Part shown: positions 27,597 through 64,000 of the stretch, piece by piece
Layout: the number at the start of each line of letters is the position of its first letter
Numbering within the stretch: position 1 is the stretch's first letter
Position numbers and translations under genes: made by a program
Source: Aquilaria yunnanensis
Taxonomy: Eukaryota; Streptophyta; Magnoliopsida; Malvales; Thymelaeaceae
Reading direction: 5' to 3'
Length of the DNA: 64,000 bases
NCBI GenBank assembly: GCA_039654915.1
Contig: CM077600.1
Coordinates: forward strand, 39,106,492 to 39,170,491
The notes under the pieces: generated by a model
Seen by the model: the letters and a program-made list of their open reading frames with translations, nothing else
Told to the model about the DNA's origin: nothing
Databases searched by the model: none

Positions 27597-30500
27597 TGTG
27601 GCAACGTCGGGTTTTCTGGAGTCGCCACCAATCAGTTTACTTAGGTCGATTGGTCACCTAAAATATGGTCTGCGAGAGTTCGGGGGTTCGGGAGTACGGT
27701 TACGTTGAAACAACTTTGTTAAAACGCCCAAAAATTGGCACCTTAGTTGATTTTAATTTTGTTTTACTTTGCTTTTAAAAAAATTTCAGTTAATTTAGAT
27801 ATTTTAACTGAATTAGTCGAAAATGTGGATTTTTGGTAATTAAGTTGGATAAAATTTGATACTTCCGAACCATGGACTCTGCCGAGTCATTTGGACACGG
27901 AAGATTTTTGATTCCGAACCATGGACTCTGCCGAGTCATTTGGACACGGAAGATTTTTGATTCCGAACCATGGACTCTGCCGAGTCATTTGGACACGGAA
28001 TTTGGTGAAATTTTAAACAATTTTATCCATATTGTAAAAATATGGATTTTTATCTTTTTTTTAATTTATTTATTTTAAAAGAATTGATATTTTCCAAACC
28101 GTAGATCCTGCCGGATTATCCGGATATGGAAATTGATTTACTTAATCGTAATTATTTAATTCCTGAAATTAATTTTTTAAAAGGTAATGATTTTTAATAC
28201 TAACTAAAAATTTGTCTTTATATTTTTACTTCTTTTTTTTTCTTTCTTTTCTTTTCTTTTTTTTTTTTTATCTTTTATCTTATTTTTCTTATCTTCTTTT
28301 TTTTTTATTTCTTTTTTTATCTTTCTTTTATTTCTTTTTTTTATCTTTCTTTTATTTTTATCTGATTTTTTTCTTAATTTATAAAAGAATTCAAAAGCAA
28401 TTAATTTTTTTATTTAATAAGAAGTTAATTTAAAGGAATCAAAGAGTTTAAAAAAAATAAAATAAAAAAAAATCTTTGATCATGGTACGGGGCGTTGTTA
28501 CTCAGCCAGACCCTCTTCACCAGGTGAAGCAGCTCAAAAGCGGGCACGAGACAGTTTCCAGCCAATATACCATGAACTAATTTTTTATAAAAATAATTAT
28601 TTAATACCAGAATTTTATTTATTTACTAAAGAAAACAAAAGAGTTGAAAATAAAATCTTAATTCTCATGTATTTGATTTTTTATTTAAAAGATTAACCAA
28701 AATTAATTATTCAATAAAATAATAAAGAAAAGATTTATATAAAGAAAGTCTTGATATTTATACATATTTATTTTTTAAGCTTATTTTTTTTGATTTGATA
28801 AAAGATGAACCAAGAAAGTAATTATTTAATCAAGGTTTTTGTTTATTTAATGAAGAAAACTAAAGATTTATATGTATATTTTAAAAATAAAAGTGAAGCC
28901 TTAATATTTTATTTAATAAAAGGTGAATCAAAAAGTAAACAAAACTTTATTTATTTAATGATGAAACCGGAAATTTATATATATATTTCAAAAATAAAAT
29001 AAAAATCTTAATATTTGTTTGTTTTATTTTTGATAAAAAAAATTAAGCAAAAATGATTATTTAATAAGGAAAATAAAGGTAAAGTTTTGATATTTATATA
29101 ATTTATTTTGAAAAAAGATTAAAGAAATCAAAGATTTATATGTATAAAAAGTTTTTGATATTTATATGATTTTTTTTTATGTTCTTTTTGTTTGCTAAAA
29201 GATTTTTATTATTACCTTTATTTGAAATCATTTGAATAAAATTTTATTTAATAAAGGAAACAAAAACAAAAAAAAAAAAATGTTATATCTTTTTTTTATT
29301 ATTTTGAAAGAAATAAGTAAAATATTAGCCCAAGAAAATTTTTACTCCTTTATTCTTTTTATTAATAAAGAAACCAAAAAAATTATATTTTATTATTTTG
29401 CTGGATAAAGAGATAAATAAAAAATATTAGTCCAAAGTTTTTTTTTTTATTTTTTTAATAATAAAGGAAAATTTATTTATATACTTTATTTAAAAAATAT
29501 TTTCCAAGCCATGGATCCTGGCGGATCATTTGGACATGGAATTTAATTTCTTTTTTATATTTCATTATTAATTATTAATTAGAAAAAAACATCACTTTTA
29601 AAGATGTATTTAAAAAAAAATTTGTATTTATTTATTTATTTATTTCATTATGTTTGTTTATAAAAAATAATTTTTATTAGCCTTTAGGAAATTATTCACA
29701 TAAAATTCCTTTTTTTTAATCTTTTAGTTAAAAAAAAAAAAAATTAATAAAGTGGGGCTTTTTGGCCATCCACTTTAATAACACAATAATAAAAGTTAGC
29801 ACAATTAATATAGTTAGTTGTTAATAACAATAAAAAAAGTTAGTAAAGTTAGATTAACAATTAACAACAATAATAAAAATTAGCCAAGTTTAATTAAGTC
29901 AATTAATTAACAACAATAATAAAAGTTAGCCAAGTTTAATTAAGTTGATTAATTAACAACAATAAATAAAAGTTAGCCAAGTTTAATTAAGTTAATTAAT
30001 TAACAACAATAATAAAAAGAAATTAGTCAAGTTAATTAAATTAATTAATTAACAACAATAATAAAAAGTTAGTCAAGTTAATTAAATTAATTAATTAATT
30101 AACAACAATAATAAAAAGTTAGTCAAGTTAATTAAATTAATTAATTAACAACAATAATAAAAAGTTAGTCAAGTTAATTAAATTAATTAATTAATTAACA
30201 ACAATAATAAAAAGTTAGCCAAGTTAATTAAATTAATTAATTAATAACAATAATAAAAAGTTAGCCAAGTTAATTAAATTAATTAATTAACAACAATAAT
30301 AAAAAGTTAGCCAAGTTAATTAAATTAATTAATTAACAACAATAATAAAAATTAATTAATTGTTAACAACAATTATAAAAGTTAGTAATAATGCAAAAAT
30401 TAAAAGGTTAGTAACAATAATAATATTAAAAGTTAGTTGTTAGTAAGTCAATAACAACAATAAAAAGAAGATTAGTAATAATAACAATAATTAACAAATA

Positions 30501-30644
30501 AATAAACAAGTAAAAATTAAAAAGGTTAGTAATTTATTCTGCAGGAACAAAAATAAAAGGTTAGTGACCAAATTGAAAGAAATTGAAAAGATGAAGTATG
30601 GAATCAAGGTTTCACCTTTCAAAACAAGTTTTTGAATCTGAAGA

Positions 30645-30800
30645 ACAGAGACGCGAAGGCGCGCGCGAAAGGAGGGGGAGGCAGGGGCAGCTGGCGGCGC
30701 GGCGGGGCGGCGAGGCGGCGCGGCGGCGAGGGCGGCGAGGCGGAGGGACGGCGGCGGCTGCGGGCAGCGAGGGGCACGACGGAGAGAGAGAGAGAGAAAG
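30645..30800 (-). repeat. GC-rich, CGG-type block in the LTR of element 2
   Basis: About 150 bases of GGCGGCGAGG-like sequence with many CpG sites, followed by a GA microsatellite (30780-30810), in an otherwise AT-rich LTR. It lies just downstream (in sense) of the TATA box at 30957-30964, so it would be transcribed as a CCG-rich leader. The element-3 LTR has only a short GC patch (GGGCGCGCGACGG) there. Reading frames through it are not credible genes. Confidence 0.75.
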
Positions 30801-30956
30801 AGAGAGGGAACAGCAGTGAAAAAAAAAAAAATTTGGCTTTCTGGGGAAGAAGGGAAGAGGGCTGGGGCTAAGGGCTGTAATTTTCTCTTTTTTTTAAAAC
30901 GGAGCTCTAAGTTTTTTTTCTATTTTTTTCTGTGTTCAGAACTGAATTTGGGGGGG

Positions 30957-30964
30957 TATTTATA
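30957..30964 (-). promoter_or_regulatory. TATA box of the LTR promoter, element 2
   Basis: The complement of TATTTATA in GGGGGGTATTTATAGAAGG, at the same LTR position as in elements 1 and 3. Confidence 0.55.
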
Positions 30965-31479
30965 GAAGGAGCTTAGCTGAACTGTGGACGGATAAATTAA
31001 TAAAAAATATCAAACTTATCTTTTAAATTGGTAAAATGACAGTTTCAGTCCTTTACGTTACTCCAGCTCTGGATAAGCTCAGAAGCTTCTGATTTTGACA
31101 ATTTTAACGTTTTCTGTCAATTTGGGCCAGAAACGTCCGTTTAGGCCCAAAATTGACGCGAAAAATTACCCAAAGCTCCTGAAACTTTCAGAATTTGTCA
31201 ATTTTGTCCGAAACTTCTCAATTTTGTCATTTTTACCTCAAACTTTTAATTTTTTTGTCATTTTTTCCTGAAATTTTATTTTTATTTCAAACACATACAT
31301 ATTCACACATATATTATTTTAAATCAAATCTTCTCAAAATAAAAATATATTTTAAACTAATTAACATAATTAAAATTTTTTAGCAATAATAATAATAATA
31401 ATGATAATTTTTTTAATTAGTTTTTTTTTTTTTAAAAAAAATTTTTTAAAAAAAACCCGGACGAAATTGGGTGTCAACA

Positions 31480-31492
31480 GCTGCCCCCCTTT
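31480..31492 (-). other. Polypurine tract of element 2
   Basis: Sense AAAGGGGGGCAGC directly next to the LTR start, identical to elements 1 and 3. Confidence 0.85.
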
Positions 31493-31599: not shown

Positions 31600-33065
31600 T
31601 TTTTTAGAGCCTCTGCGATAAGAACTCTCCTATCGTTGAAGGGAAAATTTGATAATTTTGAGGTTAAGGGTCCTACCTTAGAACCTCGACAATAGGAACT
31701 CTCCTATCGTTTGAAGTAAAATTGATGATTTTGAGGTTAAGGGTCCTACCTTAGAACCTCGACGATAGGAACTCTCCTATCGTTTGAAGGAAAATTGTTT
31801 GAATGGGGTTAAGGGTCCTACCTTAGAACCTCGACGATAGGAACTCTCCTATCGTTTGAAGGAAAATTGTTTGAATGAGGTTAAGGGTCCTACCTTAGAA
31901 CCTCGACGATAGGAACTCTCCTATCGTTTGAAGTAAAATTGATTGTTTTGAGGTTAAGGGTCCTACCTTAGAACCTCGACGATAGGAACTCTCCTATCGT
32001 TTGAAGGAAAATTGATGATTTTGAGGTTAAGGGTCCTACCTTAGAACCTTGACGATAGGAACTCTCCTATCGTTTGAAGGAAAATTGATTGTTTTGAGGT
32101 TAAGGGTCCTACCTTAGAACCTCGACGATAGGAACTCTCCTATCGTTTGAAGGAAAATTGATGATTGAGGTTAAGGGTCCCACCTTAGAACCTCGACGAT
32201 AGGAACTCTCCTATCATTTGAAGGAAAATTGATGATTTTGAGGTTAAGGGTCCTACCTTAGAACCTCGACGACAGGAACTCTCCTATCGTTTGAAGGAAA
32301 ATTGATGATTTTGAGGTTAAGGGTCCTACCTTAGAACCTCGACGATAGGAACTCTCCTATCGTTTGAAGGAAAATTGATGATTTTGAGGTTAAGGGTCCT
32401 ACCTTAGAACCTCGACAATAGGAACTCTCCTATCGTTTGAAGGAAAATTGATGATTTTGAGGTTAAGGGTCCTACCTTAGAACCTCGACGACAGGAATTC
32501 TCCTATCGTTTGAAGGAAAATTGATGATTTTGAGGTTAAGGGTCCTACCTTAGAACCTCGACGATAGGAACTCTCCTATCGTTTGAAGGAAAATTGATGA
32601 TTTTGAGGTTAAGGGTCCTACCTTAGAACCTCGACAATAGGAACTCTCCTATCGTTTGAAGGAAAATTGATGATTTTGAGGTTAAGGGCCCTACCTTAGA
32701 ACCTCGACGATAGGAACTCTCCTATCGTTTGAAGGAAAATTGATGATTTTGAGGTTAAGGGTCCTACCTTAGAACCTCGACAATAGGAACTCTCCTATCG
32801 TTTGAAGGAAAATTGATGATTTTGAGGTTAAGGGCCCTACCTTAGAACCTCGACGATAGGAACTCTCCTATCGTTTGAAGGAAAATTGATTATTTTGAGG
32901 TTAAGGGCCCTACCTTAGAACCTCGACGATAGGAACTCTCCTATCGTTTGAAGAAAAATTGATGATTTGAGGTTAAGGGCCCTTCCTTAGAACCTCGATG
33001 ATAGGAATTCTCCTATCGTTTGAAGGAAAATTGATGGAATGAGGTTAAGGAAATCTCCTTGAACC
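31600..33065 (-). repeat. Minisatellite of element 2, about 20 units of 73 bp, each with two hairpins
   Basis: The + strand unit reads GAGGTTAAGGGTCCTACCTT, AGAACCTCGA, then CGATAGGAACTCTCCTATCG and TTTGAAGGAAAATTGATGATTTT. CGATAGGA/TCCTATCG is a perfect 8-bp stem with a 4-base loop, and GAGGTTAAGG pairs imperfectly with CCTTAGAACCTC. It sits where elements 1 and 3 carry a different but related array. Confidence 0.9.
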
Positions 33066-33586: not shown

Positions 33587-34216
33587 TTATGGGATCGAAC
33601 TGTTCGGGAAAGACTGTCGCGTCCAGTCTATCTGAATCATTGCTGGATCTGGTTCAGGAACAAAAGCTTGTATTTTATCTAGCAATTCTTCAGCAGTTGT
33701 TGCGGATATTATGATTCGCCGTGCCACTCTTGATATAAAATTCTTCTGCATAGCATAATCCATAAAAGCTATCAGACCTGTAAAGAAATTGTTAACATTT
33801 AAAAGCCCAATGGGTTTCTTATGCAAATTAAGTTGGGCCATGGAAGCAATTTGAAAGACTTCTCCCAATGTGCCAAAACCACCTGGTAGAGCGATAAAAG
33901 CATCAGCATTTAAAAGCATTTGTAACACACGCTCTTGTAAATTTTTAACCACTAATTCTTCTCCAATCGTGCCCCCAGAAATAAATTTCAGAGGTCCAGG
34001 GATAATGCCCAGAACTTGACTTCCTCCTAGAGATGCTGCTGATGCTACACCTCCCATTAATCCGACACTACCTCCTCCATAAACTAAATGTATTTTTCGC
34101 TCAGCTAATACTCTACCCAAATGGTTGGCTGCTTTTAAATACTCTTCATCTTTTCCAGGAAAAGCCCCAGAAAATACACAAATACTTCGGGATTTACGAG
34201 TTGGGGTTTTCTCCAT
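33587..34216 (-). CDS. Cargo LOG-like protein of element 2
   Basis: 209 codons, differing from the element-1 protein at only about three positions (His7 to Arg, Thr205 to Asn, Leu208 to Ile). All LOG-family signatures are intact (GGGSVGLMG, PGGFGTLGE), with the same Lys-to-Val change after the conserved Arg of the substrate segment. It is intronless. TATA box at 34249-34256 on the minus strand and the repeated module at 34310-34770 lie upstream. The copy in a putatively autonomous element is open and full length, which suggests the cargo belongs to the family and was not acquired by one defective copy. Confidence 0.85.
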   Translation of the reverse strand: MEKTPTRKSRSICVFSGAFPGKDEEYLKAANHLGRVLAERKIHLVYGGGSVGLMGGVASAASLGGSQVLGIIPGPLKFISGGTIGEELVVKNLQERVLQMLLNADAFIALPGGFGTLGEVFQIASMAQLNLHKKPIGLLNVNNFFTGLIAFMDYAMQKNFISRVARRIIISATTAEELLDKIQAFVPEPDPAMIQIDWTRQSFPNSSIP

Positions 34217-34248
34217 TCCTATCCTTACCCTTGTGAGAAAAGAGGATA

Positions 34249-34770
34249 TATTTATAGAGATGAAGAGATAAGGCAATAATTTTATTTTTCAAGAATGGAT
34301 ACATTATTGCCAGCTATTCATAGTAGTCACGGGTATGACTCTGGTCAGGTATGGGTACACTATCGTTAAAAGAGGAGGAAAATTTTCAAAATAGCTGCTA
34401 GCATGTACAGTAGTCGCGACTGTAGCTTATGTCAGGAGTAGGTACATGATTGTCGGATGAGAAGGAAAATTTCAAAAGTGGCAGGTATATACAGTAGTCA
34501 TAATTATAGCTCATGTCAGGAGTGGGTACATTATGGGAGGAAAATTTCAAAAGCGTCAGCTAGCATGTACAGTATCGTGACTATGGCTTATGTCAAGAGT
34601 GGATACATTATTGCTGAAAGAGGAGGAAAATTTCAAAACCGACAGCTAGCACGTACAGTAATCGTGACTTTGGTTCATGTCAGGAGTGGATACATTATTA
34701 CCAAAAGGGGAGGAAAATTTCAAAAGCGACAGCTAGCACGTACAGTAATCGTGACCTTGTTCCGTCTTCT
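34249..34770 (-). promoter_or_regulatory. Promoter of the LOG-like gene, element 2: TATA box plus about 85-bp repeats
   Basis: TATA box TATAAATA (complement of 34249-34256), preceded in sense by five to six copies of the ACTGTACATGCTAG / TTTGAAATTTTCCTCC / AATAATGTA module. It is collinear with 7405-7925. Confidence 0.55.
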
Positions 34771-34805
34771 ACTGGCTTTGCGTCCAGTAACGGCTTCAAT
34801 GCTTT

Positions 34806-35369
34806 CTATGAATCAGTGATTTGCATCTCATCTAGCTTTTTCACAAACTGGCAAACAGGGTCGTTTAGGGTCAGATTCCCAAGACTGTAACGTTCTCGTT
34901 CTTTTTGGAGAATTATCCATAATCCAACAACCTCAAATTGCACTATTCCGCAAGAATGCGCTTCAAGAACCTCTCGGATATCTTCCAGAGATTCCTTACG
35001 CAAGCCATTCTTGATGAATTTTATTCTATCATTACGATTTCTGGTGATCACTCCTGGAGAACGACATTTATTGCCGCAAATCCACCATCCACAATTGTGA
35101 CAGACGCCTAGCCTCTTTGCTCTTCTCTTTTTGGCATAAACGCTTTTACCAAAGCCGGGCATACGGGGAAAGAACGCATCTGGAACTTCACCAGCCGAAC
35201 GAACTTTAGCTTCGATTAGCCACCGCACATTATCAGGAATGCCTTTGTGCATAAATAGTCGGAATCGTTCACATCTAGCTTGATAAACCTTTTTAAGAAC
35301 ATTTATTGGGAAAGAAGGGAAATATTTTCGTAGAGCGGAAAGAGAAGGCTCCATTGATGAATGAGGCAT
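34806..35369 (-). CDS. Cargo ORF 'c' of element 2: viral NABP-like zinc-finger protein
   Basis: 187 codons from the first ATG (MPHSSMEPSLS). The homologous 182-codon start is the ATG five codons later, at 35354. Basic run GKSVYAKKRRAKRL, finger CHNCGWWICGNKC, then VITRNRNDRIKFIKNGL. The C-terminus shows VCQFVKKLDEMQITDS. It is nearest to the 'c' copies of elements 1 and 3. Likely a small nucleic-acid-binding protein; no signal or membrane segment is visible. Confidence 0.6.
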   Translation of the reverse strand: MPHSSMEPSLSALRKYFPSFPINVLKKVYQARCERFRLFMHKGIPDNVRWLIEAKVRSAGEVPDAFFPRMPGFGKSVYAKKRRAKRLGVCHNCGWWICGNKCRSPGVITRNRNDRIKFIKNGLRKESLEDIREVLEAHSCGIVQFEVVGLWIILQKERERYSLGNLTLNDPVCQFVKKLDEMQITDS

Positions 35370-35618: not shown

Positions 35619-36167
35619 CTATAAGTCGGGGATTTGCTTCCCATCTAGTTTTCTTACAAACTGACAAACGGGGTCGTTTAAAATCACATTCCCAAGACTG
35701 TAACGGTTTCGTTCTTTATGGTAAGTCCTCCATAAACCGATAATTTCACCTTGCACTTTTCCACAAGAATGCGTTTCAAGAGTCTCTCGGATATCTTTCA
35801 GAGACTCCTTACGCAGGCCATTCTTAATGAATTTTCTTTTATCTTCACGATTTATGGAGATGTATCCTAAAGAGCGACATTTAGTATTACAATTCCATCG
35901 CCCACATTTATAACACACGCCTAGTCTCTTTGCTCTTCGCCTTTTGGCATAACGGCTTTTACCTAAACCGGGCATGCGGGGCATAAATGCATCTGGAACT
36001 TCACCCGCCAAACGGACCTTAGCTTCAATTATCCACTGCACATTATCGGGAATGCCTTTGCGTGTAAAAACTCTGATTCTTTCACATCTAGCAAGGTAGA
36101 TCTTTTTAAGGACTTTTAGTGGGAGGGAAGGAAAGTATTTTCGCAGTACAGAAAGAGTAGAATCCAT
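35619..36167 (-). CDS. Cargo ORF 'b' of element 2: viral NABP-like zinc-finger protein
   Basis: 182 codons, intact. Basic run GKSRYAKRRRAKRL, finger CYKCGRWNCNTKC, then GYISINREDKRKFIKNGL. Its finger is of the Arg-Trp-Asn type, unlike the Trp-Trp-Ile finger of the element-1 'b' copy, so one of them has probably been converted by a neighbour. A TATA box (complement of the TTTATAGTGATG motif near 36290) and the shared upstream module precede it. Confidence 0.6.
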   Translation of the reverse strand: MDSTLSVLRKYFPSLPLKVLKKIYLARCERIRVFTRKGIPDNVQWIIEAKVRLAGEVPDAFMPRMPGLGKSRYAKRRRAKRLGVCYKCGRWNCNTKCRSLGYISINREDKRKFIKNGLRKESLKDIRETLETHSCGKVQGEIIGLWRTYHKERNRYSLGNVILNDPVCQFVRKLDGKQIPDL

Positions 36168-36456: not shown

Positions 36457-37005
36457 CTATGAGTCGAGGATCTGCTTCCCATCTAGCTTTCTTACAAGCC
36501 GGCAAACAGGGTCGTTTAAAGTCAGATTCCCGGGACTGTAACGGTCTCGTTCTTCATGAAAAATACTCCATAAATCAAGAATTTCACGTTGCACAGATCC
36601 ACAAGAATGCGTCTCAAGAGTCAATTGGATATCATCCAATGAGTCCTTACTCAAGCCATTCTTGATGAACCGTATTTTATCTTCTCGATTATTGGAGATC
36701 ATTCCTAAAGAACGACACCTAGTCTTACAAGTCCACCTACCACATTTATGGCAGACTTGTAATCTTTTCGCTCTTCTTTTTCTGGCATAAGAACTTTTGC
36801 CAACACCAGGCATGTAAGACACAAATGCCTCTGGGATTTCACCTGCCAGACGAACCTTAGCTTCAATTAACCACCGCACATCTTCAGGGATTCCTTTATG
36901 CATCAGAGCTCTTAATCGTTCACAGCGAACTTGGTAGATCTTTTTTAGGATGTTCATTGGGAGAGAAGGGAAATACTTTCGCAAGGCGGAAAAAGTAGGA
37001 TCCAT
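36457..37005 (-). CDS. Cargo ORF 'a' of element 2: viral NABP-like zinc-finger protein
   Basis: 182 codons, intact. Basic run GKSSYARKRRAKRL, finger CHKCGRWTCKTRC, followed by MISNNREDKIRFIKNGL. It is the first cargo gene after pol in sense order. The start ATG is conserved with the other 'a' copies, in the context AAAATGGATCC. Confidence 0.6.
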   Translation of the reverse strand: MDPTFSALRKYFPSLPMNILKKIYQVRCERLRALMHKGIPEDVRWLIEAKVRLAGEIPEAFVSYMPGVGKSSYARKRRAKRLQVCHKCGRWTCKTRCRSLGMISNNREDKIRFIKNGLSKDSLDDIQLTLETHSCGSVQREILDLWSIFHEERDRYSPGNLTLNDPVCRLVRKLDGKQILDS

Positions 37006-40611: not shown

Positions 40612-40624
40612 GCTGCCCCCCTTT
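40612..40624 (-). other. Polypurine tract of element 3
   Basis: Sense AAAGGGGGGCAGC adjoining the LTR start. Confidence 0.85.
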
Positions 40625-40724
40625 GCATGCTTCATGGGACATGATGTATGCAAAGTCGTTACTAAATTTCGTCCGGCTTAGGTAGGCATTGAGAATCTTC
40701 TCGCCGCCCAAACAGTAAGGTTTA

Positions 40725-50509: not shown

Positions 50510-50584
50510 TAATCTTATTTGGAGCCGAATTGAATATCGGTGTCGAGGTCCAATTTTATCCTTTTAAAAGTAAGGTATATTTTA

Positions 50585-50820
50585 TTAGATCCTATGTGTA
50601 TGTGATTGATGCAATGGATGCATGTAGGGAAAATGAGATTATGTTTTTATCAGACTTTGTATGCACGTGATTAATGTAATGGATGTATGCAATGAGATTA
50701 TGTTTTTATCAGACTTTATATGCACATGATTAATGTAATGGATGTATGCAATGAGATTATGTTTTTATCAGACTTTATATGCACGTGATTAATGTAATGG
50801 ATGTATGCGATGAGTGAATT
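50585..50820 (-). repeat. Leader minisatellite of element 3, four units of about 59 bp
   Basis: Units contain GAGATTATGTTTTTATCAGA and TGTAATGGATGTATGCAATG. The same repeat begins the window in element 1. Confidence 0.85.
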
Positions 50821-51109
50821 TGATTATCCACTATCGTGGAACTTCAAGACTTTTAGTTGTTATTAAAAAGACCAAAAAGTTAGCATAGTTTGATGCGTGG
50901 TTTTGATGCATGAAGAATATTTGCACAAAACAGAAGTATAACAAAAGAAAGATAAGTTTATTAATAACTTAAATAGCAATTAACAACTCATGAACTATTA
51001 TGGAAAAATGAGTTAAAACCATAAATACGAAAATAAAAGTGTAGAGCAACAACACAGCATAACAAGGATATGCTTATGGCGTTGGTAAATGGGAGGAATA
51101 CTATGGTCA

Positions 51110-51542
51110 GTTCTATGGTTAAGTGGGGAGTTCTATATGCATAAGGTGGCTTATCAAAAAGGCAAGGGATAGTTCCCGAATCCCGTCACTAAATTATAGT
51201 GACGGCCCGATTCCTTACCCTCTAGGGTTTATGTAAGGAATGGATTAATTCGAGTCGTAGCTTTTCGTGGGCCCATGCAGAGACTAACCGTCTCAGAAGG
51301 CAATACACTACTTTGCTACTTTGAAACCGGTGAAGGCTTGGAGACCATGGCCTCACAAGGACAGCAACACCAATTCCGCTTAGAAAGAATCGTGTTTGAT
51401 TTGAGGAAGCTCGGGTATAGAGCTTCATATTGTGAATACATTATGCATGTTTATCTAAGTAAATATAACATATAAATCCACATAATAATAAGCAAAGTAA
51501 ATCAAAACAAATCATCTTTTAGGCTCGACTCACTATCATCGA
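51110..51542 (-). promoter_or_regulatory. Conserved 5' leader of element 3, candidate packaging region
   Basis: About 430 bases next to the PBS, nearly identical to 63545-63960 of element 2, although the two elements differ strongly elsewhere upstream of gag. It contains a perfect hairpin at 51183-51205 (CCGTCACT, 7-base loop, AGTGACGG). A non-autonomous element needs such signals to be packaged by another element's Gag, so the conservation fits a packaging or dimerisation role; this is inference. Confidence 0.55.
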
Positions 51543-51561
51543 CTCCCCAGCGGAGTCGCCA
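51543..51561 (-). other. Primer binding site of element 3 (tRNA-Arg type)
   Basis: Sense TGGCGACTCCGCTGGGGAG, three bases after the 5' LTR end. It complements the 3' end, including CCA, of a plant tRNA-Arg, the usual primer of Ogre elements. tRNA identity is from memory. Confidence 0.75.
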
Positions 51562-51564
51562 AGC

Positions 51565-54526: not shown

Positions 54527-57500
54527 TTATGCAAAGTATTTCTTTACTGCATCCGAATTTACTGGCTTCGGTAATTCTCGTCCATCCATTTCTGTCAGAA
54601 TTAGTGCCCCTCCTGAAAATGCTTTCTTCACGACATATGGCCCGTCATAATTTGGTGTCCATTTTCCTCTTGAATCATGTTGCATGGGTAAAATTTTCTT
54701 GAGCACTATGTCACCATCGTGAAATTGTCGTGGGCGAACCTTTTTGTTGTAAGAACGAATCATCCTTCTTTGATAAAGTTGCCCATGGCAGAGGGCTATC
54801 ATTCTTCTTTCATCAATTAGATTTAATTGCTCGTATCTAGCTTTGACCCATTCTGCTTCTCTTAATTGAGTATCCATTAGTACCCTTAATGAAGGAATTT
54901 CAACTTCGATGGGCAATACAGCCTCCATACCGTATACCAGAGAAAAAGGTGTTGCTCCAGTAGAAGTACGGGTAGAAGTTCTATAAGCATGTAGTGCAAA
55001 AGGTAACATCTCATGCCAGTCCTTGTAAGTGACGATCATCTTTTCAACAATTCTCTTGATATTTTTATTGGCCGCTTCTACTGCACCATTCATCATTGGT
55101 CGATAAGGTGCCGAATTGAGATGTTTGATTTTGAACTGCCGGCACAAAGTTTGCATCATTGCATTGTTCAGGTTCGTGGCATTGTCTGAGATGATACATT
55201 CCGGCGGCCCATAACGACAAATGATTTCTTTCTTAATGAACCGGCATACCACCTTTTGAGTCACACTTGCATATGACATAGCTTCTACCCATTTAGTGAA
55301 GTAGTCAATTGCCACTAGGATGAATTTGTGACCATTGGAAGCTTTAGGGGTAATGGCTCCAATGACGTCAATTCCCCACATGGCAAAAGGCCAAGGTATT
55401 GCTGTTACATTAAGAGGGGTGGGTGGAGCTTGGATCTTGTTGGCATATATTTGACATTTGTGACATTTTCTCACGTGATTAATACAATCACTTTCCAATG
55501 TGAGCCAATAGTAGCCAGCCCTCATTATTTGTCTTGCCATGGTATGACCACTAGTGTGTGCTCCACATATTCCAGAATGAACTTCTTCCATGATCTTTCG
55601 TGCTTCATGAGTATCTACACAGCGAAGTAGCATCGAGTCTGGGGTTTTCTTGTAGAGTATGTCTAGGTTTAAAAGAAAACCCATTGACAATCTTCGTAGA
55701 AATTTCTTGTCATTTTCTGATGCTTCTAGTGGATATGTTCGTTCTTGGAGGTATTTCTTGATATCATGATACCAAGGCTTTCCATCCAATTCTTCTTCGA
55801 TGCTCATGCAATAAGCTGGAGAATCTATTATTTTCATCTCGAACACAGGAGTATGCTCAGGGTCGCTTATCTTGTACATAGCAGCCAAAGTAGCTAAAGC
55901 GTCTGGGATTTGATTATCTTCCCTTGGAAGATGATGGAAACTTATACTGTTAAATCTTCGAGTCATGTCTAGTATAAGCTTTTGGTAAGGGATTAATTTT
56001 GAATCTCTTGTCTCCCATTCTCCATTGATTTGATATATGACTAATGCGGAATCCCCATAGACTCGGAGATCTCGCACTTTCAAATCCAATGCCATTTGGA
56101 GTCCCATAGCACATGCTTCATACTCTACTATATTGTTGGTACAAGGAAATGTAATTTTTGCTGTGAGGGGAAACTGCTCTCCGCTTGGAGAGATGAGTAT
56201 AGCTCCGATCCCTTGTCCCAAAGCATTAGATGCTCCATCGAATGCCATTTTCCATGTTTCATTTTCTTCATCGACTTCCTGTTCTATCGTCATTATATCT
56301 CCATCAGGAAAGTCCATTCTCATGGGCTCATAATCCTCCAATGCTCTATCAGCCAGATATTCAGCGATCACACTTCCTTTTACGGCCTTTTGGGTGACAT
56401 ACTGTATGTCGTATTCAGATAACAGCATTTGCCATTTTGCAATCCTGCCTGATAAAGCGGGTTTCTCGAAAATGTACTTAATGGGGTCAGTCTTGGAGAT
56501 CAGTAATGTTGTGTTGTTGAGCATGTAGTGTCGTAGTCGATGTGCTACCCATGCAAGGGCACAACAGGACTTTTCTACTATTGAGTATTTAGCTTCATAT
56601 GTGGTAAGCTTTTTGCTCAAATAGTAAATTGCATGCTCCTTCTTGCTTGTCTCATCACGTTGACCCAATACGGATCCTAATGAAGAATCCTGTATGGATA
56701 AATATAGAATCAACGGTTCTCCGGATCGAGGTGGTATCAAGACTGGTGGATTTGATAGATATCGTTTGATTTTCTCGAACGCTTCTTGGCATTCGTTATT
56801 CCACTCAATCGGATTGTTCTTCTTTAGTGATTTGAAAAGCGGTTCACACTTGGACGTCAATTGTGATATGAACCTTGCTATGAAGTTGATTCTACCCAGA
56901 AAACTTCTTACTTGTTTTGGAGTCTTCGGGGGTTGCATTTCTTGTATCGCTTTGACTTTACTCGGGTCAACTCGAATCCCGTCCTTGCTGACTATGAAAC
57001 CCAATAACTTTCCTGAAGAGGCTCCAAAAGTACATTTGGCAGGATTCAACTTCAATTGATATTTGCGAAGTCTATCGAATAGTTTTCTTAGCACTTTTAG
57101 ATGCCCCCCAGCAGTGAAAGTTTTGGCGATCATGTCGTCCACATATACTTCAATTTCTTTATGCATCATGTCATGGAACAACGTGACCATGGCTCTTTGA
57201 TATGTAGCACCAGCATTCTTTAACCCGAAAGGCATCACCTTATAGTAGAAGGTACCCCAAAGGGTAATAAAAGCAGTTTTTATCATGTCATCTGGATCAA
57301 GTTTGATTTGATTGTATCCAGAAAAACCATCCATGAAGGAAAAGTAGGAGTTTCCTGCGGTATTATCCACCAGTGTATCAATATGAGGAAGTAGGAAGTT
57401 ATCTTTAGGACTGGCTTCGTTCAAAGGCCGGTAGTCCTGACAAACTCTTAGTTTCCCACTTTCTTTCTTTTCGACTGGGACAATGTTAACCACCCATTCT

Positions 57501-57956
57501 GTATATTCAGCGACCCCAAGAAATCCTGCATCCCACAGCTTTCGAATCTCGTCTTTTACTCTTAAGATTAACTCCGGCTTTAATCTTCGTAACTTCTGTC
57601 TGACAGGCTTCGCCCCAGGCTTCAAAGGTATTTTGTGTAGTACTATGTCTGAGCTTAAGCCAGGCATATCTTGGTATGACCAAGCGAATACATCCACATA
57701 TTCTTTCAATAAATGGACTAATTCTTCTTTTTCTTCAGGAGGGAATAAAGTGCCAATCTTGACTTCTTTTACATCCTGACTGTCTCCCAGGTTGAATACC
57801 TCAGTTGGTTCTTGACTTGTTGCTCTTTCTTTTTCATCTCGCTCAATCATTTTTAATAGCTCAGGAGATACTTGAAGATCTTCGTCATCCGAGTCGGTAG
57901 TGTTTACAGGATTATCAAAGTTCATTCTTTCATTGTCATCAAAGAGAGTTTTGGGT
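54527..57956 (-). CDS. Pol of element 2: reverse transcriptase, RNase H, archaeal-type RNase H, integrase (second exon of gag-pol)
   Basis: Open from the predicted splice acceptor (57956) to the stop at 54527; the first ATG is at 57925 and the 1132 residues below are counted from it. Reverse transcriptase about 100-310 with FMDGFSGYNQI (D199) and YVDDM (261-265). A first RNase H, about 400-510, lacks some usual residues. A second, archaeal-type RNase H (560-690) has D563, E603, D625 and D675. The integrase has an HHCC finger (H783, H790, C821, C824) and the catalytic triad D853, D914, E950 with 35 residues between the last two. The double RNase H marks the Tat/Ogre lineage. The frame is undamaged, so element 2 may have been active before the insertion. 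Confidence 0.95.
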
Positions 57957-58163
57957 CTGCATTATCCAGAGAGAAAAGAAAGAGAAGAGAGAAAAAAAAA
58001 AAAAATGGCACGAATGAGATGGATGCAAACTGGTACTTTATTTACAATGTGCATAAATCACAACTTTATTGGAATAAAAAGCAATAACTAAAAGGTTCAC
58101 TTAAACAAAGACTACACCCTATTGATTGAACCTTTCTTTAGGAGGTTTTTACTATTAGATTAC
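57957..58163 (-). other. Predicted intron between gag-protease and pol (207 bp)
   Basis: The gag-protease frame ends in CCAAAGTAA; splicing at CCAAA|GTAATC removes the stop. The acceptor is CTGGATAATGCAG|ACCC, preceded by a long C/T tract. Joining gives CCA AAA CCC AAA ACT, which keeps one frame from gag into pol (2,245 residues in all). Ogre elements are known for an intron at exactly this place, spliced in part of the transcripts to control Gag-Pro against Pol. Confidence 0.75.
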
Positions 58164-61100
58164 TTTGGAAAGCTTTCAATTATAACAGGCAGTTCTATCG
58201 CCTCCCAATTGTTCAGCACATCCCGTGGGCCACAAGGTTGAATGAGCTCCTCCTCTTCAGGTGAATCGCTGATGATTGCCTGAATAGAAAGACTTTCAAA
58301 AGACTTGTTGATGTTGATAGTCAGCTTGCCTTCATTGTCATTTTTTGGAATGAGACCACCACTCACGAACGTTTCGGTGATTTCAGGGATATCCAGATTT
58401 CTTTCCTGGAGAGGATGCCCTGTTAATCGTGCAATCCTCTTTTCTCTCTTTTCAGCTATTGCCTTCATTTTATCATGTCTTGTCGGTGTGAAGCCTAGGC
58501 CGTATTTCCCTTCATTTGTGGTGATTTTCAATGGTTCTGTGATTCCTTGTAAATCTTGTCCCAATCCTAACCCCGGTGAGTATCCTCCTTTTATCATGAG
58601 TTTGGCAACCATGCGACTTGTTTTAGAGATGCTAGGAATGGGTTCTTCTTCATATTCGCTGACATAAGCAGCATTGACAATCTCAAAAGACCTGAAGGAG
58701 CAATCAGGTACATTTTCATTGACTTCGACATATTGAGCATCCGCAGGTCTTGATAGCAGGATGTCTTCTTCAGCGAAGACCGTGATTATCTTTCCTTCAA
58801 TAATGAATTTCATTTTCTGGTGTAATGAAGAAGGAATTGCTCCGGCCATATGGATCCATGGTCTTCCCAGCAGGCAGGTATAAGATGGACAAATATCCAT
58901 GACTTGGAATGTGATGTGGAAAAGACAGGGACCAATCCCTATTGGTAGCTCTATTTCTCCAACAACATCTCTCTTCGTTCCGTCAAATGCTCGAACAACA
59001 ATATGACTGTTGTTGAGGTGTGATGGGTCTAAACCGATCTTATGTAAAGTTTCTAATGGCATTACATTTAGAGCTGATCCATTGTCGATCAGAACTCTAG
59101 CCATAATCCGATCTTTGTATTTAATCAAAATATGTAGAGCCTTAGAGTGACCCCTTCCTTCTGCTGGTATCTCATCGTCAGTGAATGTGATGAGATTTTG
59201 TGCCGTGATGTTGTTGACAAGGTGGTCAAAGTTGTTCACGGAGATATCTTGTTCAACATAAGCCTTATTCAGGACTTTGAGAAGAGCTTCTCGATGGGCA
59301 TCAGAACTTAAGAGCAATGAAAGTATGGAGATCTTTGCTGGCAGACGGTTCAACTGCTCCACGATGCTGTATTCACTTTGCTTTATGAGTTTGAGAAACT
59401 CAGTAGCTTGTTCATCTGTTACTGCTCGAGGCATCTCTTGCTCTTTAGATGTGTTAATAGGTCCATTTGCTGGATCCGTAACATTCTTCTCTTGTTGGAG
59501 CTTGTTCATTTGCTCGGGAGAATAACACCGACCGCTTCTAGTCATGCCCCCAACTTCTAACGGAGTTGATGTGATGTTAGAAGTATAGCCATAGTTCCAT
59601 GGAACAGTTTTGTCTGATTTGTACGGGAATGGCTTTGGAACTTGAATTCTTAAAGGCTTGAGAGCAGATTTTGAGATTGGAATGACTAGTGGCCTTGGCA
59701 TGATATTGACTTCTTGTTCTTTAATTATCACATTCACGTCATCCTCTTTATCTGACATAAAAACGATGATTTGGGAGGAGTCCATGAGACTTTGTAGACT
59801 TTTACGGAATTCTGGGCATTCTTGGATAGAATGACTCTTACTGTTATGAAAGTTGCACCATTCCTCATGCTCGACTTCTTTATTTCCAGAAGACTTTCCT
59901 ATGATAATCCCTTCTTTCACAAGGCATGAATATACATGCTTAAGAGGGGTTATGATATCATTGACTGTTTTCTTCATCGGCCAGTATTCTTCCATCATAT
60001 TGACTGGTTTGGCTTGATGAGGAGGCAATGGATTATGAGTGACGTTTGGTTCATCGGAGAAGTCCAACCACTTTGACTCAATTAATTGTTGGACTATACG
60101 CTTCAATGCTATGCAATTTTCGAGTCCGTGGCCCACGGCACCATCATGATATGGGCAATTTAGTTTAGGGTTATACCATGTTGGATATGGGGGTTCGAAT
60201 GGCCTTGTGGGAATTGGGTGAATGAGTTGGCTCTGGATGAGTTTTGGATATAACTCAGTATAAGTCATGGGAATCGGTGCGAAAATTTCTCTTGGTCTTG
60301 GTGCAGGCATTGGAGGAGTCGGAACAGGTGGCCGTAACTGATTAGGCCTGTTGAGAGGATAATTGTTGGGTCTATTGGGAAGATAATCACTGGGCCTATT
60401 TGGAGGATAATCATTGGGCCTATTGGTAGGATAATAATTGGGCCTGTTGGCAGAATAGGATAGGCGAGGTCCGGTAGCCACGGTACCCACGAGGGGAATC
60501 CCTCTTCCTCGTCCGATTTGTTGTATTTCTTCATCTTTTCTTCTGGATGGTCCTCCTCTTTTCATAGGATCACTAAAGGACTCAGTAATCTTCCCGGTCC
60601 TGATACCATGCTCGATCCTTTCTCCAGACATGACTACGTCGGAGAAGTTAGTTGCCGCATTGCCAATAAGTTTGTCATAATATGGGTATTTCAGTGTCTG
60701 GACAAACAAAGTGACCATTTCTCTTTCTGTCATGGGTGGCTGTACTTGTGCAGCTAAGTCCCTCCATCGTTGGGCGTATTCCTTAAAAGTTTCTGTTTTT
60801 TTCTTCTCCATGTTTTGGAGAGTTTGGCGATCCGGAGCTAAGTCCATAACATGTTTATAGTTGCCGATGAAGGCCTGAGCAAGGTCATTCCAAGTTTTTA
60901 TGTTTCTTGGACCTTGGCTTAGATACCACTGTAATGCTGATTTTGTGAGACTTTCCTGAAAAAGTGCGATCCACACCTTCTCATCTTTGGTAAGTGGTTG
61001 TAGTCTTCTGAGAAACAAAGTGATGTGAGTGATGGGATCACTCGTTCCATCGTATTTTACGAAATCTGGCACCTTAAAATCTGAAGGGATTACGACGTCT

Positions 61101-61471
61101 GGCACTAAGCAGAGGTCATCCACTGAAAGGGATCCGAATATAGTGCCTCCTTCAATGGCTCTCAGTCTTTTCTCTATTGTCTCGATTTTTTGAGATTCTG
61201 CTTCATCTTTTGGTAATGTCTTCTTCTCTTCCTGTACAGTGTCTTGTTTCAGGTGAACACTAGCAGAGGGTCCTGATTCTTGAAACAGGTTTTCTTGGAC
61301 TGAGACTCGTTGCGGGGTGAATCCCGGGGGATAAGTGGGATCTTGTACTTCTTTGATGGGGACTTGAGTTGCTTTCCCTTTGATTAATTCCATCAATTGT
61401 TTCATCTGTTCTGACATACTTTCAATCTTGGACTCCATCTCCATGAGACGTCCTTCGGCTTGTTCTGCCAT
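58160..61471 (-). CDS. Gag-protease of element 2 with G-patch
   Basis: 1103 codons when unspliced. Retrotransposon Gag core about 145-290. Proline/asparagine repeats 344-380 (NRPNDYPP-like). Cys/His clusters at 439-453 (CPYHDGAVGHGLENC) and 539-552. Aspartic protease about 775-900 with RVLIDNGSALNVMP (Asp796) and CLLGRPWIH. G-patch about 954-995 (LMIKGGYSPGLGLGQDLQG), an RNA-associated motif typical of Tat/Ogre Gag-Pro. The last codons overlap the intron donor. ATG 61471 lies about 195 bases after the ORF1 stop. Intact, and the reference for the truncated gag copies in elements 1 and 3. Confidence 0.95.
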   Translation of the reverse strand: MAEQAEGRLMEMESKIESMSEQMKQLMELIKGKATQVPIKEVQDPTYPPGFTPQRVSVQENLFQESGPSASVHLKQDTVQEEKKTLPKDEAESQKIETIEKRLRAIEGGTIFGSLSVDDLCLVPDVVIPSDFKVPDFVKYDGTSDPITHITLFLRRLQPLTKDEKVWIALFQESLTKSALQWYLSQGPRNIKTWNDLAQAFIGNYKHVMDLAPDRQTLQNMEKKKTETFKEYAQRWRDLAAQVQPPMTEREMVTLFVQTLKYPYYDKLIGNAATNFSDVVMSGERIEHGIRTGKITESFSDPMKRGGPSRRKDEEIQQIGRGRGIPLVGTVATGPRLSYSANRPNYYPTNRPNDYPPNRPSDYLPNRPNNYPLNRPNQLRPPVPTPPMPAPRPREIFAPIPMTYTELYPKLIQSQLIHPIPTRPFEPPYPTWYNPKLNCPYHDGAVGHGLENCIALKRIVQQLIESKWLDFSDEPNVTHNPLPPHQAKPVNMMEEYWPMKKTVNDIITPLKHVYSCLVKEGIIIGKSSGNKEVEHEEWCNFHNSKSHSIQECPEFRKSLQSLMDSSQIIVFMSDKEDDVNVIIKEQEVNIMPRPLVIPISKSALKPLRIQVPKPFPYKSDKTVPWNYGYTSNITSTPLEVGGMTRSGRCYSPEQMNKLQQEKNVTDPANGPINTSKEQEMPRAVTDEQATEFLKLIKQSEYSIVEQLNRLPAKISILSLLLSSDAHREALLKVLNKAYVEQDISVNNFDHLVNNITAQNLITFTDDEIPAEGRGHSKALHILIKYKDRIMARVLIDNGSALNVMPLETLHKIGLDPSHLNNSHIVVRAFDGTKRDVVGEIELPIGIGPCLFHITFQVMDICPSYTCLLGRPWIHMAGAIPSSLHQKMKFIIEGKIITVFAEEDILLSRPADAQYVEVNENVPDCSFRSFEIVNAAYVSEYEEEPIPSISKTSRMVAKLMIKGGYSPGLGLGQDLQGITEPLKITTNEGKYGLGFTPTRHDKMKAIAEKREKRIARLTGHPLQERNLDIPEITETFVSGGLIPKNDNEGKLTININKSFESLSIQAIISDSPEEEELIQPCGPRDVLNNWEAIELPVIIESFPK

Positions 61472-61664: not shown

Positions 61665-63359
61665 TCAAAAGAAACGGCCCAAAGTACAGTATTGCTTTCT
61701 GGCCTTTGAAATAAACTCCATCATTTTTTGAATATTCACTGATGGAGTAGGGCAGCTCAATTCTTCTAACTCCTTGGCTTCTTCGCCCATTAGTTGGGCT
61801 TGCTCAGTCACTTTTCTGACTTCTGCCAAAAATATTTGAAGCTGTTCTTGAGAAAATCTGTATTGATCTTCCCAATATCTTGCTCTCATCTCTGTTTGAT
61901 CGGTTTCATCAACTAATTCGGTGATGACTTGTTTTTGGCTTTCGATCTTTTCTTCGAGGAGTTGTGTTTTGTGACTGAGCTGTTGTATGTCGAAGAGCAT
62001 CTTCTTGTTCTTCTCCTTTTCTTCCTCTAGCTCTTTCTCCAACTCTCTTTTTGCCAATTTTCTGATGACCTCTTCGGGAAGAACTGTTCCTTCTTTCCGA
62101 TTATTTCTCCATTCATAATACGCAGTAGGAGAAATAATAGGGCCTGACTTTAATATGAAAAGTCTTTTCCATGCAACTGAAATACCCATTGCAAGCTTAT
62201 TTGAATTTGGATCTTCATGTGAAAACTCCAACTTGCTCAGGTTATGTGTCATGGGTATAAATTGCATGGACCCAAATTGTTTACGTACTTGGGCTGGAGC
62301 ATAGCTTGTTCCTCCCCATATGCCTAAGAGAGGAACCCACGGGCAATTGCCGCAACGGTAAACTATGCGGGTGGTGGTGGACCAGGGTGCTCTCCATTCA
62401 ATTTGGAATTCGCTGATGTTCTTGAAGTAGTCAACCCATGCTTCCTTGCTATCATGATTAGTGGTTTCACTTTTCAAAAAGGCTTCAATTGGGATGAAGT
62501 CCTTTGAAAAGCGATTTCCAAAATGTTGCTTCTCACAAGGAAGGTGGCTTTTGATCCAAACGTTGAGGAGATGTGAACATCCTATGAATTTGCCTCCTCT
62601 TTGGCGACAAAAGTTTAATGCCCTGATAGTTTCACATAATATCACTGAGGTCGGATTTACTTGGGCATTGCAGACTTGCTCAAATAATGTGATGACGTCT
62701 CCTTCAATAAATCCGACAATTCTTGGGAAGACTACCAGGCCATATATTGCCAAGGCGAACAACTTGCGTCGTTGATTCTTCTGAGGGAGGGTGTGACTTA
62801 GTTGTTTTAGATCGGTCCAGCTGATAAATTTCCGACACCCTTTTGTTGCAAATTTGGGTTGAAGACTGGAAGCTGGCATGTCCAATAATTTTGCTAGGGC
62901 TCGATGAGGCTCCGTTCTTCTATCATGTTGATAAGTCTCGATTGGATAGTCGGAGGACCAACCCAAGAGGCTGTTGTATTCTTCAATGGTTGGAACCAGA
63001 TCCATCTTATCGAAAGAAAAGCATCGATAAAATGGATCCCAAAATTGTATTAGAGCCCGGACAAGTGATGCATCAACGGTAACCTTTAGTAGGCAAGTGA
63101 TGTGACCATATTTTGCCGTAAAAGCTTCCCGATCAGCAGAATTCCAACTATTCCAGACTTGCAATAATTCCGTGGTGTCGTTCTGATTTATCCGGACCGA
63201 TACCTGGTCCTTAAGCTGTACGTGAGAATGGGATGTCAGAGCATCTCCGTGAAGCTTTTGAGCCGTTTCGGAATATTCCATAGCTTCAGGCTGAGTTTCG
63301 ATTACCGTGTCATTCCATGATCCAGTAACAGCCGTGGGAAGATAATCGAGAATATCCAT
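61665..63359 (-). CDS. ORF1 of element 2: plant-mobile-domain-like protein with C-terminal coiled coil
   Basis: 564 codons upstream of gag, the position of ORF1 in Ogre elements. The N-terminal half contains ALIQFWDPFYRCFSFDKMDL and VPTIEEYNSLLGW, the signature of the plant mobile domain-like / DUF7745-type proteins common in Tat retrotransposons. Residues about 415-540 form a charged coiled coil (RELEKELEEEKEKNKKML and following). Its biochemical role is unknown. Not present in elements 1 and 3 within the window. Confidence 0.85.
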   Translation of the reverse strand: MDILDYLPTAVTGSWNDTVIETQPEAMEYSETAQKLHGDALTSHSHVQLKDQVSVRINQNDTTELLQVWNSWNSADREAFTAKYGHITCLLKVTVDASLVRALIQFWDPFYRCFSFDKMDLVPTIEEYNSLLGWSSDYPIETYQHDRRTEPHRALAKLLDMPASSLQPKFATKGCRKFISWTDLKQLSHTLPQKNQRRKLFALAIYGLVVFPRIVGFIEGDVITLFEQVCNAQVNPTSVILCETIRALNFCRQRGGKFIGCSHLLNVWIKSHLPCEKQHFGNRFSKDFIPIEAFLKSETTNHDSKEAWVDYFKNISEFQIEWRAPWSTTTRIVYRCGNCPWVPLLGIWGGTSYAPAQVRKQFGSMQFIPMTHNLSKLEFSHEDPNSNKLAMGISVAWKRLFILKSGPIISPTAYYEWRNNRKEGTVLPEEVIRKLAKRELEKELEEEKEKNKKMLFDIQQLSHKTQLLEEKIESQKQVITELVDETDQTEMRARYWEDQYRFSQEQLQIFLAEVRKVTEQAQLMGEEAKELEELSCPTPSVNIQKMMEFISKARKQYCTLGRFF

Positions 63360-63964
63360 GATAATAGTTCTTTCACCAAATACTTATCTTTAATGATGAA
63401 ATGTATATGCCGGAAAAATAAGGAAAAATAGAGTTAGTAAAAAAAATAACACATAGGATCATACAAACATATAGATAAAACAAAACCTATGGAAATGGGA
63501 ACCGAGGTATGGGAAATTCTTAATGGCTGGTTCTAAGGTAGAGTAAGGAATTCTACATGCAGAAGGTGGTTTATCAAAAAGGCAAGGGATAGTTCCCGAA
63601 TCCCGTCACTGAATCATAGTGACGGCCCGATTCCTTACCCTCTAGGGTTTATGTAAGGAATGGATTAATTCGAGTCGTAGCTTTTCGTGGGCCCATGCAG
63701 AGACTAACCGTCTCAGAAGGCAATACACTACTTTACTACTTTGAAACCGGTGAAGGCTTGGAGACCGTGGCCTCACAAGGACAGCAACACCAATTCCGCT
63801 TAGAAAGAATCGTGTTTGATTTAAGGAAGCTCGGATATAGAGCTTCATTTTGTGAATGCGTTATGCATGTTTACTTAAGTAAATATAATATATAAATCCA
63901 CATAATAGTAAAGCAAAGTAAATCAAAACAAATCAACTTTAGGCTCGACTCACTAACGTCGCAT
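63360..63964 (-). promoter_or_regulatory. 5' leader of element 2, candidate packaging region
   Basis: 63545-63960 is nearly identical to 51110-51540 of element 3, including the hairpin at 63603-63625, whose 8-bp stem is unchanged while the loop differs (GAATCAT against AAATTAT). No gene. Confidence 0.55.
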
Positions 63965-63983
63965 CTCCCCAGTGGGGTCGCCA
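63965..63983 (-). other. Primer binding site of element 2 (tRNA-Arg type)
   Basis: Sense TGGCGACCCCACTGGGGAG, with small differences from element 3 that may reflect another tRNA-Arg isoacceptor or mutation. Confidence 0.7.
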
Positions 63984-63986
63984 AGC

Positions 63987-64000
63987 TGTGGCAACGTCGG
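63987..64000 (-). repeat. Tip of the 5' LTR of element 2
   Basis: The last 14 bases (sense CCGACGTTGCCACA); the rest lies beyond the window. Confidence 0.85.

Follow-up and report, generated by a model that had tools for sequence, protein, structure and literature searches.

Three Retrotransposons with a Common Four-Gene Cassette

We analyzed a 64,000-nucleotide stretch of the Aquilaria yunnanensis genome (contig CM077600.1, positions 39,106,492 to 39,170,491; hereafter the window), which contains three long terminal repeat (LTR) retrotransposons, named A, B and C. All three carry one common cassette in sense orientation, comprising three genes for proteins that resemble viral nucleic acid-binding proteins (NABP-a, NABP-b and NABP-c) followed by a gene for a LOG-like protein, a relative of enzymes that produce the growth hormone cytokinin, and its position is between the gag/pol region and the 3' LTR. 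An original prediction, made from the sequence alone, had described this arrangement with 11 of the 12 cargo open reading frames (ORFs) open, and the ORFs were found where it had placed them; the sole exception is NABP-a of C, which has an in-frame stop.

Element B lies on the minus strand, as do all of its features, and occupies positions 27597–64000, continuing past the end of the window to 67870. It is flanked by the target site duplication (TSD) ACTCC, has LTRs of 3.9 kb and measures about 24 kb when the nested element C is excluded. Alignment of its 3' LTR (27597–31485) with the partner LTR at about 63988–67870 gave 5 substitutions in 3889 aligned sites. The cargo of B consists of NABP-a at 36457–37005 (PF05515, E 1.5e-6), NABP-b at 35619–36167 (PF05515, E 9.6e-8), NABP-c at 34806–35369 (PF05515, 26.6 bits against a cut-off of 23) and the LOG-like gene of 209 residues at 33587–34216 (PF03641, E 1.3e-30).

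Profile matches identified three further genes in B: ORF1 (61665–63359; DUF7745/plant mobile domain), gag-pro with a G-patch (58160–61471; the protease match was weak, E 0.029) and pol (54527–57925). The latter encodes reverse transcriptase, RNase H, a second RNase H and integrase, in the Pfam domain order RVT_1, RT_RNaseH, RVT_3 (residues 570–680) and rve, and the RVT_3 match suggests that the second RNase H is of the archaeal type. The prediction that one carrier has ORF1, gag-pro and pol was thus correct for B, though the interval given for it also encloses C and does not take in A. B has the succession of reverse transcriptase, RNase H and integrase with a second RNase H, an ORF ahead of gag, long LTRs and a long internal region. 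Since ORF1, gag-pro and a pol with a second RNase H make up the Tat/Ogre layout, this domain layout supports the predicted assignment of B, as an autonomous element, to the Tat/Ogre lineage of Ty3/gypsy.

Element C (38025–54152, minus strand throughout, TSD CTCGC) is nested in B between pol and the cargo, and its LTRs (38025–40611 and 51565–54152) had 0 substitutions in 2587 sites. Its insertion parts the pol of B from its cargo, and LTR identity dates the insertions of both elements as very recent. C carries NABP-a with the in-frame stop (45942–46490), NABP-b (45103–45651) and NABP-c (44338–44886), the latter two by profile match, and a LOG-like gene (43122–43751, in an ORF that opens at 43838; PF03641, E 3.9e-30). 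Element A, on the plus strand with all of its features, spans 1–14049 and starts before the window at -3782; its LTR pair, of which the 3' member is at 11522–14049, had 0 substitutions in 2528 sites. Its cargo is NABP-a (5224–5772) and NABP-c (6810–7358), both by profile match, NABP-b (6045–6593; PF01623 above and PF05515 just below the cut-off) and a LOG-like gene (7958–8587, in an ORF that opens at 7871; PF03641, E 1.8e-30). The substitution-free LTR pairs indicate that A and C both moved very recently.

Searches of A and C with ORF1, pol and the protease part of B gave no tblastn match at E 1e-3, and both elements were therefore taken as non-autonomous. A keeps gag (205–1956; PF03732, E 7.4e-12), and C keeps only an internally deleted gag remnant (49613–50509), matched in two pieces by tblastn to the gag of B. 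A (2046–4898) and C (46676–49641) have in common a 2.9-kb segment that replaces protease and pol and is mostly unmatched in B; the two versions of this segment are 7.4% different.

Linkage of the Cassette across the Host Genome

Searches of the 842-Mb host genome showed the cassette to be widely dispersed. The LOG protein of B had at least 150 exact matches (best 150 of 3663 candidates scored), and NABP-a of B had 119 exact among the 150 matches listed, the window copy counted (best 150 of 8331 candidates scored). At least 73 of the 150 LOG copies among the matches listed had NABP-a 2.0–2.9 kb upstream on the same strand. NABP-c was upstream of LOG at 34/34 distinct LOG loci, 3 in the window and 31 elsewhere. 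Absence of the cargo from other copies had been named in advance as a finding that would speak against the prediction; NABP-c and LOG were present together in all 31 other loci examined.

Eighteen loci, picked by 100% LOG protein identity to B, were read over 10 kb, and all 18 had the order a-b-c-LOG. The genes were intact in 18 (a), 17 (b), 17 (c) and 18 (LOG, for which identity was the selection criterion) of these loci, such that 70/72 cargo genes had no stops. Sixteen of the stretches extended far enough to show what precedes the cassette, and in 15 of them this was the end of pol. Ten divergent copies, picked by similarity to a foreign LOG and having LOG 92–98% identical, had c upstream in every case, as did 3/3 further short loci. 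Together, these data show a large, very young Tat/Ogre-type family with a fixed four-gene accessory cassette. An artefact of assembly or annotation, or chance, was rejected as an explanation, and we consider it exceedingly improbable, given the near-identical LTR pairs, the TSDs of B and C, the many copies dispersed on several contigs, the constant order at the 18 loci and the absence of any N in the window.

The one locus in which pol did not precede the cassette, L015 (G000:C1:23932553-23942552), begins with the pol-less segment of A (positions 1–1713, 92% identical). The b, c and LOG proteins of L015 are identical to those of B, and this locus is likely a recombinant between pol-less and autonomous copies.

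Selection on the Cargo

The ratio of non-synonymous to synonymous substitution rates (dN/dS) was determined by the Nei-Gojobori method between window copies. All 17 cargo pairs had a ratio below 1 (window-copy range 0.13–0.31, every Fisher p <0.02), far from the value near 1 that had been put forward as evidence against the original prediction. By gene, the ratios between window copies were 0.13–0.19 for LOG (p<0.004), 0.14 for a, 0.22–0.27 for b and 0.15–0.31 for c; those among the a/b/c paralogues were 0.24–0.30 and that of gag, for comparison, was 0.18. Between A and C, despite their divergent pol-less segments, LOG had 0.19 and c had 0.20. Pooled pN/pS over 13 copies each was 0.16 for LOG and 0.26 for c. 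In addition, LOG divergence was 0.016–0.021 per site versus 0.042–0.091 in its two flanks, making the gene 2–6 times more conserved than its surroundings. These ratios, the pooled values and the conservation of LOG relative to its flanks all disfavor a neutral cargo.

The divergence of a and c was below or about equal to that of their spacers, and that of b was above. The dS of NABP-b was 0.40–0.50 and its overall divergence 0.135–0.158, versus 0.06–0.11 per site in the adjoining spacers. This high dS points to exchange among NABP genes, likely by recombination, so that single b ratios are rough. Variant codons at 16 loci (the 18 loci minus L013 and L028, which have broken genes) were silent or changing, respectively, in 23 and 21 cases for a, 6 and 6 for b, 5 and 2 for c, and 2 and 0 for LOG. 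The constraint found in A and C suggests that the cargo may benefit even copies that have no reverse transcriptase.

Putative Promoters of the Cargo Genes

A TATA-like box, TTCATC(A/T)CTATAAA, precedes b (by 111–127 bp), c (by 66 or 115 bp) and LOG (by 40 bp) in all three window elements. The boxes of b, c and LOG were also present in 16/16 further loci sampled from the 18, and in the divergent set a box was found for 10/10 c and 9/10 LOG genes. The boxes of b and c were probably shared through duplication, and judging by these motifs b, c and LOG probably each have a TATA promoter of their own.

Repeats of about 87 bp are present before LOG in B (34369–34755), A (7410–7831) and C (44037–44291). 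In B they lie in the c-LOG spacer (34217–34805, minus strand), which also holds the TATA-like box. Before b and c, single related modules could be discerned by eye, an arrangement that would fit the copying of a promoter unit.

The LOG-Like Protein

The family assignments of the original prediction held for both kinds of cargo protein, with matches to PF03641 for LOG and to PF05515 or PF01623 for the NABPs; a lack of such profile matches had also been named beforehand as evidence against the prediction. The LOG-like ORFs of A, B and C match PF03641 at E ~1e-30, and the motif PGGFGTLGE fits the PGGxGTxxE pattern. The window LOG also matched the solved Arabidopsis LOG3 in sequence (E 9e-52), and its predicted model was confident, with a predicted local distance difference test (pLDDT) score of 86. 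In CgLOG, Arg99 and Glu122 have been proposed as catalytic, and alanine at AMP-contacting and catalytic residues, Ser19 excepted, nearly abolished activity (PMC4979012). With CgLOG numbering transferred through the AtLOG3 alignment, R96 and E119 of the window LOG correspond to these two residues, and they are invariant in 15/15 aligned proteins. An apparent loss of the catalytic Arg proved to be a misalignment; in the published numbering this Arg corresponds to the R of MHQRK, and it is retained. By the transferred numbering, the window LOG has L, Q, V, G, Q and M in place of CgLOG Met96, His97, Lys100, Glu121, Glu125 and Trp129, respectively, and several of these changed positions contact the substrate in CgLOG.

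The NABP-Like Proteins

All 8 NABP ORFs scanned passed the curated cut-off of PF05515 or PF01623, with 7 of the 8 passing that of PF05515. When 49 NABPs were aligned, 45 matched PF05515 and 44 matched PF01623 at E 0.01. Four cysteines (C85, C88, C93 and C97) and five basic residues (K75, K76, R77, R78 and K80) were conserved in at least 90% of the 49 sequences, forming the basic region with an adjoining zinc-finger-like group of cysteines that typifies the Viral NABP and Carla_C4 families. A search of solved structures with the NABP profile gave 2 weak matches (E 0.52), and no relative was found in viral contigs, whether the query was a single NABP or an alignment of the NABPs or of the LOG proteins.

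Among viral cysteine-rich proteins, the NaBP of sweet potato chlorotic fleck virus (SPCFV) is described as suppressing silencing, and p12 of chrysanthemum virus B (CVB) as a weak suppressor that is also a transcription factor inducing hyperplasia (PMC12172455). By analogy with these distant viral homologues, the window NABPs may suppress silencing.

Relatives in Other Plants

Related LOG and NABP proteins are present, by sequence similarity, in other eudicots belonging to several plant families. The LOG protein search gave 7834 proteins at E ≤0.001 among 8000 scored, and named sources among the best 120 of these include Xanthoceras, Reevesia, Paulownia, Diplodiscus, Populus and Parasponia. The NABP search gave 234 proteins at E 0.01 and the profile search 624 at E 10, the best 120 of the latter all being far below that threshold; named sources among the matches listed are Rhamnella, Populus, Xanthoceras and Acer. 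The foreign cargo is known as proteins only, and an LTR context for it is suggested by copy number, by the Rhamnella gene model P0215, which joins NABP and LOG, and by equal source-sequence sizes. Within 2000–15000, foreign LOG and NABP source sequences had 3 equal sizes (2128, 4511 and 8723) where 0.2 was expected by jitter, an indirect sign of linkage; shorter equal sizes may be chance.

Most foreign LOG relatives end in a tail that the window family does not have. LxLxL, which is among the two consensus forms described for the EAR repression motif (PMC9956375), is present in the last 25 residues of 101, and within the last 12 residues of 100, of the best 120 LOG relatives, which are not independent because many are near-copies (many from Reevesia and Populus). 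It follows a basic pair, as in KKRKLDLTLRL, in 95 of the 120. As controls, 10% of shuffled last-25 tails and 0/154 NABPs (in the last 12) had the pattern. All 13 LOG copies of the window family that were compared end without LxLxL. The PGGxGTxxE-type motif with its Glu fits 113 of the 120 relatives, and of these 113 the catalytic Arg is present in 109 and the Lys100 equivalent in 4.

In a tree of 51 rows, which took 45 of the best 120 relatives and three outgroup chains and whose bootstrap support is not fully settled, the window LOG had a long branch (0.62) and grouped within a clade of several species, apart from Arabidopsis LOG3 and LOG8. This placement led us to reject a recent capture of a host LOG. 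Populus LOG relatives are inside the clade of the window LOG and Xanthoceras LOGs are outside it. Two Populus proteins annotated LOGL10, P0077 and P0099, group in a clade of transposon-like LOGs with LxLxL tails and may be products of retrotransposon genes.

Other Features of the Window

Between LOG and the polypurine tract (PPT) preceding the 3' LTR, repeat analysis identified minisatellites in each element: a 73-bp unit in B (31604–33050, minus strand), 47/51-bp units in C (40790–42556, minus strand) and 47/85-bp units in A (9148–11411, plus strand). The unit in this slot thus differs between B (73 bp) and the pair A and C (47/51 bp, and also 85 bp). Between A and B are two probable pieces of host genes, at 18244–18825 (WRKY match) and 20205–20825 (no Pfam family).

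Comparison with Known Systems

Work by Steinbauerova in 2011 reportedly described LOGL4-like ORFs in two Athila-like elements, whereas the window family is Tat-type. LOG-family YgdH domains are present in LTR retrotransposon consensuses of Citrus sinensis and C. clementina and, with the filter off, of Populus trichocarpa (PMC9289625, citing Steinbauerova 2011). LOG-family cargo in plant LTR retrotransposons is therefore already in print, and the original statement, of knowing no described retrotransposon with the LOG and NABP pair, is partly wrong as a claim of novelty; the pair itself was not among the papers listed by our searches. The parts of the Citrus and Populus report that we saw contain no mention of NABP genes, of the pair, of a selection test, of an own promoter or of an EAR-like tail, and the main text gave no match for Carla, PF01623, PF05515 or NABP (PMC9289625). 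Among the open-licence papers that our searches listed, we found no report of retrotransposon NABP genes, the LOG and NABP pair or an EAR-like tail, and the parts consulted of two papers on extra ORFs gave no LOG or NABP terms (PMC11963269, PMC7264820). LOG cargo as such is known; what appears to be new is its pairing with viral-type NABPs, the finding of this pairing in copies that have no pol, and the EAR-like tail.

Several other systems resemble the window family in part. An orchid Ogre with a functional m6A RNA demethylase is likewise a Ty3/gypsy element with an acquired, functional ORF as cargo, but has one AlkB-like domain, as against four genes of two unrelated families (PMC9289625). 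Retand, with its antisense TRP28 ORFs, also has a long region from pol to the 3' LTR with extra ORFs and tandem repeats; its cargo is mostly antisense, and its sense ORFs have no known domain in the portion of the report consulted, whereas the window cassette is four sense genes with known relatives (PMC11963269). The carlavirus cysteine-rich NABPs, such as CVB p12 and SPCFV NaBP, have the same Carla_C4/Viral_NABP core with its basic region and cysteine cluster (PMC12172455). The window NABPs differ in being retrotransposon-borne, in comprising three paralogues and in having helical N- and C-terminal regions predicted by a low-confidence model. Insect long interspersed nuclear elements with an RNA helicase domain derived from an RNA virus similarly hold a gene related to plus-strand RNA viruses in a retrotransposon, but differ in element class, host and gene (PMC5563155).

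Interpretation of the Cassette

The anatomy described above is firm, and the function of the cassette must be deduced from it. Given the activities of viral NABPs and the adjoining LOG, the simplest reading is a host-manipulation cassette that favors dividing, silencing-poor cells, and we put this forward tentatively, at somewhat below even confidence. Under this model, b, c and LOG would each be expressed from a TATA promoter of their own. The NABPs would bind nucleic acid in the manner of carlavirus cysteine-rich proteins and would dampen silencing by small RNAs, activate cell-proliferation genes, or both. The substrates of the LOG-fold protein would be adenine nucleotides, whether cytokinin riboside monophosphates or others, and its activity would favor a dividing, permissive cell. 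Both effects could help the RNA of the element to survive and to get to the germline, and non-autonomous copies, borrowing pol from autonomous kin, could also gain.

A number of observations weigh against this proposal. The adenine/prenyl pocket of the window LOG differs from that of CgLOG at the six residues named above, and because of these changes ordinary cytokinin activation by this protein is doubtful. The original prediction was partly supported, being sound as to element type, protein families and a cargo that is under purifying selection and fixed in the copies examined. An enzyme-only role would leave the putative repressor tail of most foreign relatives unexplained. The viral homology of the NABPs is modest and confined to the core (about residues 34–127), the predicted NABP model is of low confidence (pLDDT 66), and no TATA lies in the 320 bp ahead of gene a in the three window elements. 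Both cassette expression and LOG enzyme activity are predictions from sequence. Lastly, L015 suggests that pol-less and autonomous copies exchange cargo, so that selection on the cargo of A and C may partly have acted in autonomous kin; this exchange, seen also in the b gene, weakens the idea that the cargo pays for pol-less copies, and the evidence of L015 slightly lowered our confidence to the level given.

The explanation not far behind host manipulation, though in itself unlikely, is that the LOG-like protein has ceased to act as a cytokinin enzyme. This LOG-fold protein would instead be a nuclear regulator in most host species, with a C-terminal basic stretch and an LxLxL EAR motif for TOPLESS recruitment, or another adenine-nucleotide binder or hydrolase, for example for an immune signal, and the Aquilaria window copy would have lost the tail and remodelled the pocket. 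The frequency of the tail relative to its controls is consistent with such a role, as are the near absence of the Lys100 equivalent among relatives and the persistence of purifying selection on the long window branch. Retention of the Arg and the Glu motif in nearly all relatives suggests instead that catalysis was kept, and the relatives are not independent and the tail is absent exactly in the window family. Improbable, in our estimation, is a role of the NABPs in service of the element alone, in which they would act in packaging or as additional RNA chaperones of nucleocapsid type, with LOG as a side function and no host manipulation. The four near-invariant cysteines with the adjoining basic stretch would suit packaging, and the NABPs are kept in pol-less copies, which still need packaging, but gag is already present, the NABPs match viral NABP models rather than gag models, and neither LOG nor the TATA-like boxes would be explained. 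Plant LTR retrotransposons often carry captured genes, and older copies of the cassette do decay, the divergent copies having stops in 6/10 c genes and 2/10 LOG genes. Both points would suit neutral passengers captured once and carried along, an explanation that we nevertheless hold to be very improbable in view of the uniformly low dN/dS and pooled pN/pS values, the open ORFs of the window and of the 18 loci (which were picked by their LOG) and the relatives in several plant families.

Beyond the host-manipulation proposal, we consider it unlikely, and a shade less probable than a regulatory LOG, that the full extension of these ideas holds: a eudicot-wide retrotransposon lineage with a self-expressed two-part module of silencing-countering or proliferation-driving NABPs and a LOG-fold protein with a TOPLESS-recruiting tail in most hosts, kept by non-autonomous copies for their own spread, with a gene exchanged between plant RNA viruses and retrotransposons. 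If this were true, the tailed LOG-fold protein would unite hormone chemistry and transcriptional repression in one parasite protein. The window family makes it testable whether a gene moved between RNA viruses and retrotransposons, and whether plant transposons have virulence-like functions such as hormone and silencing control. It also calls for caution in annotation, since part of the genes labelled LOGL10 may belong to transposons.

The accessory cassette is genuine and under selection, it belongs to a young retrotransposon family, and its LOG and NABP proteins have relatives in several other plants. That four non-replicative genes are under selection in a very recently active family, and are present also in the two of three window members that have no pol, suggests that the elements gain selfishly by influencing the host cell. 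Retrotransposons are usually regarded as copying themselves and doing little else, and the window family may do more.

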